From Euzebya tangerina (lineage in GTDB: Bacteria; Actinomycetota; Nitriliruptoria; Euzebyales; Euzebyaceae): a stretch of 64,000 nt of DNA. A program made the translations under genes and the position numbers. The notes beneath the pieces were generated by a model that searched no databases, was not told where the DNA came from, and was given only the letters and a program-made list of their open reading frames with translations. Within the stretch, counting starts at the first letter, position 1. Each line of letters begins with the position of its first letter. Location of the stretch: contig NZ_PPDK01000001.1 in assembly GCF_003074135.1 (NCBI RefSeq), forward strand, positions 3,100,001 to 3,164,000, given 5' to 3'. Below, one piece after another: positions 20,008 through 34,299 of this stretch.

Positions 20008-20060
20008 CGTGACATGTTGCACCAGCCCTGCGGAGAGCAGGCTTCCTGCAACATGTCACG
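20008..20060. promoter_or_regulatory. 14-bp inverted repeat between pfkA and the M13 peptidase gene
   Basis: CGTGACATGTTGCA (20008-20021) and TGCAACATGTCACG (20047-20060) are perfect reverse complements 25 bases apart. Inside lies a smaller stem, CCTGC/GCAGG (20027-20031 and 20037-20041). The arms fall near the expected -35 positions of the two divergent promoters. It may be a shared operator or an RNA hairpin. Confidence 0.55.
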
Positions 20061-29945: not shown

Positions 29946-30638
29946 TCAGGCCGTCACCAGGTCGGGGAGCAGGTGCCCGACGTCGGAGAAGTGCTCGAGC
30001 GCCCACATGTCCGCGGTGGCGATCGGACGGCTGCGCAGCACGGTGATCGAGGCGTGGTTGCAGGGGAACCGCTCCCACTCCCACGGCTGGGGGTCGAGTC
30101 CCAGCAGGTGTGAGGTGATCACGGAGTTCGTGCCGGCGTGCGCCACGAGCATCAGGCGTGGGCCATCATCGGGGACGTCCCAGAGGCGTGCGGGGTCGTC
30201 GACGTGGCGACGGCCACCGAAGCGACCGAGGAAGTCCTCCAGGCCACTCGTGATCCGGGTGTGGAAGTCGCGAAAGGACTCGCTGCCCGGTGCGCCCTCC
30301 CACCACTCGTCCAGCGGACGGGTCTTCAGGCTCTCGAGCACCCGGATGACGTCGTCCTCCGGCTGACCCTCCCAGGCGTCCGGGGGCCCGATCTCCAGGG
30401 CCCACGGCTCGGCTGTGGCGGTTGTGCCCAGTGCCTGTTCGATGGGCCGTGCCGTGGCGACGGCTCGGCGGGCAGTCGAAGAGAACAGGCCGTCCACCGG
30501 CCGGTCCTCCGCAGCTAGCGCCTTGGCCACGCGGTCGGCCTGCACCTGGCCGAGGGACGTCAACTCGGGGTCGTTGGTCGACGTGCCGTCGGCGGTTCGC
30601 CAGGCGGGCTGAGCGTGCCGGATCAGAACCAGTTCCAT
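29946..30638 (-). CDS. Histidine phosphatase family protein
   Basis: A 230-residue phosphoglycerate mutase-like enzyme. The catalytic motif is LVLIRHAQPAW (RHG variant RHA), and the second histidine is in LMLVAHAGTNSVI. LFSSTARRAVATARPI is the phosphate-binding segment. The physiological substrate cannot be inferred. The ATG at 30638 is 8 bases downstream of a TACTGT box. The MFS gene upstream on the same strand ends 37 bases before it. Confidence 0.88.
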   Translation of the reverse strand: MELVLIRHAQPAWRTADGTSTNDPELTSLGQVQADRVAKALAAEDRPVDGLFSSTARRAVATARPIEQALGTTATAEPWALEIGPPDAWEGQPEDDVIRVLESLKTRPLDEWWEGAPGSESFRDFHTRITSGLEDFLGRFGGRRHVDDPARLWDVPDDGPRLMLVAHAGTNSVITSHLLGLDPQPWEWERFPCNHASITVLRSRPIATADMWALEHFSDVGHLLPDLVTA

Positions 30639-30675: not shown

Positions 30676-31977
30676 TCAGGAGACCACCTCGGGTGCTGAC
30701 TCCTCCAGCTCCAGACCCATCGTCTCGGGCAGGTAGCGATACCCGATCACCGACACAGCCGTCGGCACGCTGACGACCCAGGCCGCCGTAGAGAACGATC
30801 CGGTCGCCTCAGCCACCAGCCCGAAGGTGATCAGTCCGGCCACCGCCCCGATGGTGCTGGTCAGCGTCACCCAGCCGGCGGCGGTCCCGCGAATCGACGT
30901 GGGGAAGATCTCCGCCGCGGTGGCGGCGACCGCAGGCGCGTAGCTGGAGCCGATGAAGAGGGTCGCGACATACCCGCCGGCTGCCCCCCACGCCCCCGCG
31001 GAGTAGGTGAGGACGCCAGCCCCCGCCAACGCGAACTTGGTCCACATCGCCGTCGGGATCCGCCCGATCTCATCGGCCAGCCAGATGCCGAACAGCAACC
31101 CGACGCCGCCCAGGACGCCGCCGATGGGCAGGATGATCGTCTGCATGGCGGGGGAGAGACCGACGACCGCCTCGCCGTACAGGAACAGGTAGGTGTTGAC
31201 CGGGCCGGTCAGGAACGCCAGGACGAAGCCCAGGCCGCAGAGGAGGGCCAGACGGCCGACCAGGGGACGGGGTACCCGCCCCAGCCGCTTGGCGGCGGGC
31301 GAGTCGGGATCGATCTCACTGATGACCAACTTCGCTCTCGCGGGCTCGTCCACCAGGCGAGCAACCAAGGGGATCGTCGCCAGCAGCGGGATGGCGACCA
31401 GCAGGATGGCCCGGTACCCGATCGCGCCATCGGTCAGCCCGCGCAGCAGGACGGGTGCGCCGGCGCCGATGCCGTAGCCAGCGGTGATCACGGCGAGGGC
31501 CTTGGACCGGTCTCGCGTCGCCACCTCCTCCGCCGCAATCACCCCGGCGACGGCGTTGACCGCCGAGGCCAGCGGTCGTGCCACCGCGAGGATGATGATC
31601 AGCGGCCAGAAGGAGGGGCTGATCGCGCCGGCCGCGGTGAGGCCCAGGGTCAGCGCCGTCGCCACGAGCAGGACCCGCCGTCGACCCAGTCGGTCCGCCT
31701 GTCGGGCCACCGGCAGCGCGGCGACGGATGCCAGCCGGATGATGCCGAGCGCGATGCCGAGCGTCCCGAGGCCCAGGCCGGCCTGCTCGACGATGGAGGC
31801 GTCGGATCCGGGGACGCCGATGTCGAACGCCTCGGCGATGTCGGGCAGGGCGGCCGTGGCGGTGAACTGGGCGAACCCCGCGTAGATGCTGAAGGCAGCG
31901 GCAGCCAGGACCGACGGGTGCCGCCACGCGTGGACGGTGATCTCGGTGTCGACCGGGGGAGAGGGTGATGCAGACAG
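30676..31977 (-). CDS. MFS transporter with apparent CTG start codon
   Basis: A 433-residue, roughly twelve-helix carrier. The first ATG/GTG/TTG in frame is GTG 31710, but that start would drop helices 1-2; the frame continues upstream with a clear MFS N-terminus (SIYAGFAQFTATAALPDIA, then GLGLGTLGIALGIIRLASVA) to a stop at 31981-31983. The only plausible initiator upstream is CTG at 31977, giving LSASPSPPVDTE. A TACCCT box lies 6 bases before that CTG, the same geometry as other leaderless starts here. VARQADRLGRRRVLL is the MFS loop 2-3 motif. The gene is divergent from glgX. Alternative: a start-codon mutation making it a pseudogene. Confidence 0.75.
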   Translation of the reverse strand: MSASPSPPVDTEITVHAWRHPSVLAAAAFSIYAGFAQFTATAALPDIAEAFDIGVPGSDASIVEQAGLGLGTLGIALGIIRLASVAALPVARQADRLGRRRVLLVATALTLGLTAAGAISPSFWPLIIILAVARPLASAVNAVAGVIAAEEVATRDRSKALAVITAGYGIGAGAPVLLRGLTDGAIGYRAILLVAIPLLATIPLVARLVDEPARAKLVISEIDPDSPAAKRLGRVPRPLVGRLALLCGLGFVLAFLTGPVNTYLFLYGEAVVGLSPAMQTIILPIGGVLGGVGLLFGIWLADEIGRIPTAMWTKFALAGAGVLTYSAGAWGAAGGYVATLFIGSSYAPAVAATAAEIFPTSIRGTAAGWVTLTSTIGAVAGLITFGLVAEATGSFSTAAWVVSVPTAVSVIGYRYLPETMGLELEESAPEVVS

Positions 31978-31983
31978 GCCTCA

Positions 31984-31989
31984 AGGGTA
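31984..31989 (-). promoter_or_regulatory. -10 box for the CTG-initiated MFS gene
   Basis: TACCCT with 6 bases to CTG 31977; supports CTG initiation on a leaderless mRNA. Confidence 0.5.
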
Positions 31990-32067
31990 GGCCGGGCCGG
32001 CCCCCAGGCCAGACCAGGTCCACGATCGCGCTCCGTGCAGGCACCCGTGTGCGAGGCTGGGGCGCAC

Positions 32068-34299
32068 ATGGATCCTGTCAGCAGCACCAGCGGCCCCACC
32101 CTGCCGGGCGAGCCCTACCCGGTGGGGGTCACCTGGGATGGGCGAGGGGTCAACGTCGCGGTGTTCTCCGAGGCCGCCGACGGCGTCGAGTTCTGCCTCT
32201 TCGGCGACGAACCGCAGGACGAGGTGCGGTTCGAGCTCGCCGACTCGACCGGCTTTGTCTGGCACGCCTACATCCCCGGCGTCAGCCCCGGCCAACGCTA
32301 CGGCTTCCGGGTCCACGGCCCGTGGGATCCCGGACGTGGGCTCCTGACCAATCCGACCAAGGTCCTGATCGACCCCTACGCCAAGTCCATCGAGGGGGAC
32401 ATCCGGTGGGATCCGGCCTGCTTCGGCCACGACCTGAACGACCCGGACCGACCCAATACGACGGACAACGCTCCCTTCGTCCCGAAGTCCGTGGTGATCA
32501 ACCCGTTCTTCGACTGGCGGGACGACGCACCACTCCGCCGCCCCTTCGCCGAGACCATCACCTACGAGACACATGTGAAGGGCGCCACGGCCAGGCACCC
32601 CGACATCCCGGCCGGACTCCGGGGGACCTACGCCGGGTTCGCCTCCGCACCCTTCGTCGAGCACCTGGTCGACCTCGGCGTCACCGCGGTCCAACTGCAG
32701 CCGGTCCACCACTTCCTGACCGACCATTTCCTGTGGCAGAAGGGACTGTCGCAGTACTGGGGGTACAACACCATAGGCTTCCTGGCACCACACGCCGGTT
32801 ACGCCTCCGGCGGGACCTTGGGCCAGCAGGTGTATGAGTTCAAGGGCATGGTCGCCGACCTCCACGCTGCCGGGCTCGAGGTCATCCTCGACGTCGTCTA
32901 CAACCACACCGGCGAGGCCGACCACCACGGTCCCACCGTCTCGATGCGCGGGCTGGACAACCCCTCCTACTACCGGCTCGACCCGCACAACCCGCGGCGC
33001 TACATCGACTTCACCGGCACCGGCAACAGCATGAACGTGCAGAACCCGCACGTGCTGCAGCTGATCATGGACTCCCTGCGGTACTGGATCACCGAGATGC
33101 ACGTCGACGGGTTCCGCTTCGACCTGGCCGCGACCCTGGCCCGCGAGCTGCACGACGTCGACAAGCTGAGCGGCTTCTTCGACATCATCCAGCAGGACCC
33201 GGTCATCAGTCAGGCCAAGCTGATCGCCGAGCCGTGGGACCTCGGCGACGGCGGGTATCAGGTCGGCAACTTCCCCGTGAAGTGGACCGAGCTGAACGGC
33301 AAGTACCGCGATGCGATGCGCAGTTGGTGGCTGGGCGCACCCGGTGAGACGGGGGTCGGTGAGGTGGCCAGTCGGCTGGCCGGCTCGAGCGATCTGTACG
33401 CCCACAACGGCCGTCGGCCGTACGCCTCGATCAACTTCGTTACCTCTCACGACGGGTTCACCATGCGGGACCTCGTGTCGTACGACCGCAAGCACAACCA
33501 GGCCAACCTCGATGGCGGCACCAGCGGCGAGGATCACAACCGATCCAACAACCACGGGACCGAGGGGCCGACGACGGATCCCGACGTCCTCCGCCGCCGC
33601 GACCGGTCCGTGCGCAACATGCTGGCGACGCTGCTGCTCAGCCAAGGCGTGCCCATGCTGCTGGGGGGTGATGAGTTCGGACGTACGCAGCAGGGCAACA
33701 ACAACACCTACTGCCAGGACAACGAGCTCACCCACTATGACTGGGCCTGGACCGACGCTGACCGTGCCATGTACACCTTCACGAAGCGGGTCATCGCCCT
33801 GCGACGCGCCCATCCGGTCTTCCGGCGACGCCAGTTCTTCGACGGCGGGGAGGATCTGGTGTGGCTGAATCCCGATGGCACGCCGATGGAGCCACCCGAC
33901 TGGGACGAACACGACCGTCAGACGCTCGGGTTCTTCCTGAACGGCCAGGCGTTGCCCACACGGGACGAGCGCGGCGAGATGGTCACCGACGACAACTTCC
34001 TGGTCCTGCTCAATGCCACAGGGGACGAGGTGGAGCACGTGATACCGGGCGTGGAGTTCGGTGAGCGCTGGCAGGTCGTGCTCGACACCGATCAACCGCG
34101 CATCGCGCGTGACGAGCGGTCGATCATCGCGGCCAAGGACCAGGTCCGAGTCAGCGACCACGCGCTGCTGGTCCTGCGCTCGTGTGGGCACGCCGAGAGC
34201 CGGACCCGGCGCGTCGAAGACCGCAGCAGCGCCGCACCCGGAGTCGGCCACCGGTCCTCGGTCCTCGGTCCGCCCCGTCCGGCCCAGGAGGCCTCGTGA
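32068..34299 (+). CDS. glgX: Glycogen debranching enzyme GlgX
   Basis: A 743-residue GH13 isoamylase-type enzyme that hydrolyses alpha-1,6 branches of glycogen. An N-terminal CBM48 domain (VGVTWDGRGVNVAVFSEAAD) precedes the barrel. Catalytic regions: VVYNHTGEADH, GFRFDLAATLARE (nucleophile Asp), AEPWDLGDGGYQVG (acid Glu) and NFVTSHDGFTMRDL. The last ~50 residues are a low-complexity Ser/Arg/Pro tail. ATG 32068 gives the standard N-terminus. The stop overlaps the GTG of treY (GTGA), so glgX, treY and the DUF368 gene form an operon turning branched glucan into substrate for trehalose formation. Confidence 0.95.
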   Translation: MDPVSSTSGPTLPGEPYPVGVTWDGRGVNVAVFSEAADGVEFCLFGDEPQDEVRFELADSTGFVWHAYIPGVSPGQRYGFRVHGPWDPGRGLLTNPTKVLIDPYAKSIEGDIRWDPACFGHDLNDPDRPNTTDNAPFVPKSVVINPFFDWRDDAPLRRPFAETITYETHVKGATARHPDIPAGLRGTYAGFASAPFVEHLVDLGVTAVQLQPVHHFLTDHFLWQKGLSQYWGYNTIGFLAPHAGYASGGTLGQQVYEFKGMVADLHAAGLEVILDVVYNHTGEADHHGPTVSMRGLDNPSYYRLDPHNPRRYIDFTGTGNSMNVQNPHVLQLIMDSLRYWITEMHVDGFRFDLAATLARELHDVDKLSGFFDIIQQDPVISQAKLIAEPWDLGDGGYQVGNFPVKWTELNGKYRDAMRSWWLGAPGETGVGEVASRLAGSSDLYAHNGRRPYASINFVTSHDGFTMRDLVSYDRKHNQANLDGGTSGEDHNRSNNHGTEGPTTDPDVLRRRDRSVRNMLATLLLSQGVPMLLGGDEFGRTQQGNNNTYCQDNELTHYDWAWTDADRAMYTFTKRVIALRRAHPVFRRRQFFDGGEDLVWLNPDGTPMEPPDWDEHDRQTLGFFLNGQALPTRDERGEMVTDDNFLVLLNATGDEVEHVIPGVEFGERWQVVLDTDQPRIARDERSIIAAKDQVRVSDHALLVLRSCGHAESRTRRVEDRSSAAPGVGHRSSVLGPPRPAQEAS
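34286..34291 (+). promoter_or_regulatory. Ribosome-binding site deciding the treY start
   Basis: AGGAGG ends 4 bases before GTG 34296. The three following in-frame GTGs (34311, 34326, 34341) are too far from it, so the first repeat copy is the likely start. Confidence 0.6.

Follow-up and report, generated by a model that had tools for sequence, protein, structure and literature searches.

A putative leaderless CTG start in an MFS transporter gene next to glgX in Euzebya tangerina

The prevailing view is that leaderless initiation requires an mRNA beginning with AUG or GUG. In Mycobacterium smegmatis, ATG and GTG work as leaderless starts, and CTG and TTG are ineffective (Shell et al. 2015, PMC4633059); in M. 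tuberculosis, 95% of the transcription starts are purines (PMC4633059). The output of CUG in Escherichia coli is 0.86% of that of AUG, and CUG sums up to 0.024% of bacterial start codons (PMC11497404). Here, an MFS transporter gene of Euzebya tangerina is described, which has the geometry of a leaderless gene and carries a CTG at the place of the start codon. The gene lies within a stretch of 64,000 nucleotides, referred to as the window, and coordinates are window positions unless another prefix is given.

The MFS gene is encoded on the minus strand, and its frame runs from stop to stop over 434 codons (30676-31980). Read from the CTG, it occupies 30676..31977 and comprises 433 codons and a stop. 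The frame is bounded by an in-frame TGA (31981..31983, minus strand), the second codon before CTG 31977, with GGC as the sole codon between them. The protein matches PF07690 MFS_1 (E 1.6e-29; 103.4 bits, curated cutoff 33.4), all its matches in NCBIfam stay below cutoff, with no specific transporter family or substrate predicted, and solved structures resemble it only weakly. The first-pass annotation had reported a full and conserved first-helix region in a frame with no ATG, GTG or TTG ahead of GTG 31710, and both observations were confirmed. The first such codon of the stop-to-stop frame is exactly GTG 31710-31708, 90 codons in, and relatives share the WRHP motif and the first helix. The predicted first transmembrane helix (31855..31911, minus strand) is a Kyte-Doolittle peak at residues 24-42 of the open frame, and just before it stands the conserved W-R/L-H-P-S-V motif (31909..31926, minus strand), which was recognized in alignments with genus-mates and more distant relatives. 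The N-terminal half including helix 1 is complete only if the start lies upstream of 31926. A start at GTG 31710 (31708..31710, minus strand) was rejected, as it would remove the WRHP motif together with helices 1-2.

The gene is flanked by the divergent glgX gene for a glycogen debranching enzyme (32068..34299, plus strand; TIGR02100 score 919.8, cutoff 640.9) and, downstream, by a histidine phosphatase gene (29946..30638, minus strand; PF00300, E 8.4e-27). In 17 of the 19 other related loci examined (L002-L020), glgX also adjoins the MFS gene, and this adjacency, kept across the order, hints at a role of the transporter linked to glycogen or trehalose metabolism.

Of 61 related genomes, 53 carry an ortholog of the MFS gene, and the starts of these orthologs were assigned from sequence in this analysis, not taken from annotations. 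The proteins of three genus-mates are 64-65% identical to the protein described here and have HPSV and the following first helix in common with it. Across the order, the proteins begin with some 10-30 variable residues, after which most have [HRY][GAS]W[RL]HP; therefore, the MFS start must be placed ahead of the Trp codon (31926). The relatives start with GTG, TTG or ATG, 10-30 codons ahead of the WRHP motif. In G001 (L004), the start is a GTG followed by Ser-Ala-Ser, which aligns with the CTG followed by Ser-Ala-Ser of our gene (V-SAS vs L-SAS). The starts of G002 and G003 are GTG and TTG, respectively, with AAPPADDH next in both, and the other resolved relatives have ATG or GTG. The orthologous codon, proposed earlier as a check, is thus an ordinary initiator in all relatives that could be resolved. 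A TANNNT hexamer stands 7-9 bases before the MFS start in seven relatives of the same order (L007-L011, L013, L018), so leaderless-type spacing is a recurrent trait of the gene family. No -10 box at leaderless spacing was found before the start in the three genus-mates. A scan of genome contigs for other strains or close copies returned a distant relative only.

Upstream of the MFS frame, a TACCCT hexamer (31984..31989, minus strand) lies six bases from the proposed initiation codon (CTG, 31975..31977, minus strand), just as the first-pass annotation had placed it; it is the putative -10 box of a leaderless-type promoter. From 31989 downward, the minus strand reads TACCCT-TGAGGC-CTG, and the in-frame TGA is inside the six-base spacer. 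No Shine-Dalgarno sequence is present at a working distance; the sole GAGG cannot act as one for CTG 31977 because it sits 1 base away, which is too close. With TACCCT at 6 bases, the gene has the box expected about 6-9 bases before the codon of a leaderless gene, but the codon itself is CTG and not ATG or GTG. The CTG is the only near-cognate codon that is rightly placed, and it aligns with the GTG of G001. Very unlikely is the alternative that translation begins at another codon, such as ATC (31939..31941, minus strand), or at the CTG on a longer, leadered mRNA that lacks a Shine-Dalgarno sequence. The ATC stands 5 codons before the conserved Trp, and codon-usage support sets in from around codon 10, but neither a Shine-Dalgarno sequence nor a -10 box serves it and congeners do not start at this position; for a leadered CTG, the GAGG is placed as unfavorably as described above.

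To place the gene among others of its genome, the window was joined with 1.6 Mb of the same contig (1.66 Mb in total), in which 1361 genes were called by a simple codon-usage method, and occurrences of TANNNT were counted ahead of in-frame codons close to the gene fronts. The hexamer was seen 6-9 bases before ATG 197 times (18.6 expected) and before GTG 64 times (22.3 expected), with a gap of 6 being common (51 ATG, 21 GTG); therefore, about 220 genes, or about 16% of those called, are leaderless in type. TTG showed no enrichment of TANNNT at 6-9 bases in the 1.66 Mb (7 seen, 7.0 expected), and a class of leaderless CTG genes was sought in the same sequence and not found (11 seen, 29.2 expected). 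The leaderless-type genes of this genome use ATG or GTG only. In the 261 ATG or GTG genes with TANNNT at 6-9 bases, TACCCT is the commonest box (24 genes) and Ser the commonest second residue (60 genes), and at least four of codons 2-7 end in A/T in 17 of them, compared with 10 of 1361 mid-gene stretches. In the MFS gene, the second residue is Ser and four of codons 2-7 end in A/T. TTGA/TTGC-like -35 elements are rare with leaderless boxes in the 1.66 Mb (12/261). The MFS sequence is one base away from a perfect leaderless GTG gene of the genome's own style, and a genus-mate has GTG, which would also be expected if a base-call or assembly error hid a true GTG (or ATG) in an ordinary leaderless gene. 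Such an error is unlikely; broken frames are rare in the 1.66 Mb and the assembly looks clean, a check that tests indels better than substitutions.

The combination found at the MFS gene is unusual within the genome. TANNNT lies 6-9 bases before 11 of 2181 CTG codons near gene fronts in the 1.66 Mb, and exactly 6 bases before 2 of them. The MFS gene alone among these 11 is free of ATG, GTG and TTG from the upstream stop to +50 codons; the other 10 have an ordinary start nearby. Open reading frames were also flagged when their coding signal preceded the first usual start by 20 codons or more, which was the case for 19 among the 1361 called genes. The coding score lost in this way is 40.7 for the MFS gene and 21.1 for the next. 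Judged from their translations, most of the other flagged frames look like antisense shadow frames, and two besides the MFS gene look real, namely rsfS and a protein at G000:C1:1721314. The latter is a 237-codon frame on the minus strand with LNEGSLHAALKEVYR, and its first 53 codons contain no ATG, GTG or TTG. No Pfam match was found for this protein, and its start is perhaps an ATC after AGGTGG.

The rsfS gene (L112, G000:C1:2507754; TIGR00090, 77.9 bits, cutoff 56.9) has no usual start before codon 46, and an in-frame CTG stands 8 bases after AAGGA. The CTG and its Shine-Dalgarno sequence are present in at least 15 relatives of the sister families f2 and f3 (L116-L121, L123-L126, L128-L131, L162), and the codon is TTG in genus-mates, ATT in the family-mate G004 and GTG or TTG in f4, the other family of the class that was examined. 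No report of a CTG start in rsfS came up in a limited literature search, a weak sign that it is new. The scan of this genome revealed no general class of CTG genes led by a Shine-Dalgarno sequence (64 seen, 95.9 expected), and rsfS is a single case. A CTG near window position 20045, flagged in the same scan, was rejected; it belongs to a putative M13-type peptidase frame, which has an ordinary GTG a little downstream. In the gene of a ribosome-silencing factor, such a conserved weak start codon suggests translational control. The infC gene has an AUU start. By analogy, the CTG of rsfS may serve regulation in the way of the AUU of infC.

The explanation of the MFS gene builds on the directly observed frame, box, spacing and conservation of the start region, and on the ATG/GTG leaderless class of the genome. 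There is about an even chance that it is an ordinary leaderless actinobacterial gene with a CTG start. RNA polymerase would use the TACCCT -10 box, and the 5' end of the mRNA would probably fall at C31977 or within a base or two. Initiator tRNA would then start at the CTG, yielding fMet-SASPSPPVDTEITVHAWRHPSV ahead of helix 1, and initiation at CTG 31977 would probably be weak. The CTG most likely arose from a GTG, as found in G001, by one G-to-C change, a direction that we infer. The intact open reading frame argues for a CTG start, and the conserved Shine-Dalgarno-led CTG of rsfS indicates that the lineage can apparently use one. Against it, the +1 base would be C, compared with 95% purine in M. 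tuberculosis (PMC4633059); the genus-mates lack the box at this spacing, CTG is not enriched at leaderless spacing in the genome itself, and CTG is ineffective at the 5' end in M. smegmatis (PMC4633059), with CUG giving 0.86% in E. coli (PMC11497404). The choice of CTG 31977 in the first-pass annotation holds for the site and its leaderless geometry, which relatives and own-genome statistics support well, and less firmly for initiation at the codon. Its argument that a leaderless mRNA makes a CTG start more plausible is contradicted by M. smegmatis (PMC4633059) and by the ATG/GTG-only pattern of the genome.

The same ineffectiveness of leaderless CTG in mycobacteria, and the lack of a CTG leaderless class in this genome, would fit a natural loss of the start. 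In that case, a genuine GTG-to-CTG (or ATG-to-CTG) change would have all but abolished translation of the leaderless mRNA, leaving the transporter silent or nearly so in this strain. Such a loss is unlikely. The branch of the MFS tree leading to our gene is 0.39, compared with 0.23 in G001 and about 0.20 in other congeners, and the own branch is not longer in this way for glgX (0.23 vs 0.21) or rsfS (0.16 vs 0.26). However, 434 codons are kept without stop or frameshift, conserved motifs are retained and the relative-rate chi-square is modest (0.4-5.9). A slight relaxation of the gene is possible; decay was not seen in the frame, the motifs, the tree branches or the relative-rate tests. The best reading is a leaderless gene of the GTG type whose first base is now C and which initiates weakly or not at all. 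Somewhat short of an even chance is given to a working natural leaderless CUG start, which would keep the transporter low where leaderless genes otherwise use AUG or GUG only. If this natural CUG case is true, the demand for AUG or GUG is not strict outside mycobacteria, and a native template is at hand for testing why; if the CTG does not work, the gene cleanly illustrates how a single base can switch off a transporter.

Compared with the known TANNNT-led leaderless genes of Actinobacteria (PMC3160421, BMC Genomics 2011; PMC4633059), the MFS gene is alike in having the box at 6-9 bases and no Shine-Dalgarno sequence, and it has a hexamer and spacing like those of the approximately 220 leaderless-type genes of its own genome. 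The known leaderless starts in Actinobacteria are ATG or GTG, whereas the MFS gene has CTG. The orthologs of the order beside glgX (L002-L020) resemble it in the gene, the neighbor and the N-terminal motif, several with leaderless-type spacing, but all their resolved starts are ATG, GTG or TTG, unlike the CTG described here. Within the same lineage, rsfS resembles the MFS gene in having CTG as its apparent initiation codon; in rsfS, AAGGA/AGGAG stands upstream and the CTG is kept across families, whereas the proposed CTG start of the MFS gene lacks a Shine-Dalgarno sequence and is confined to this genome.
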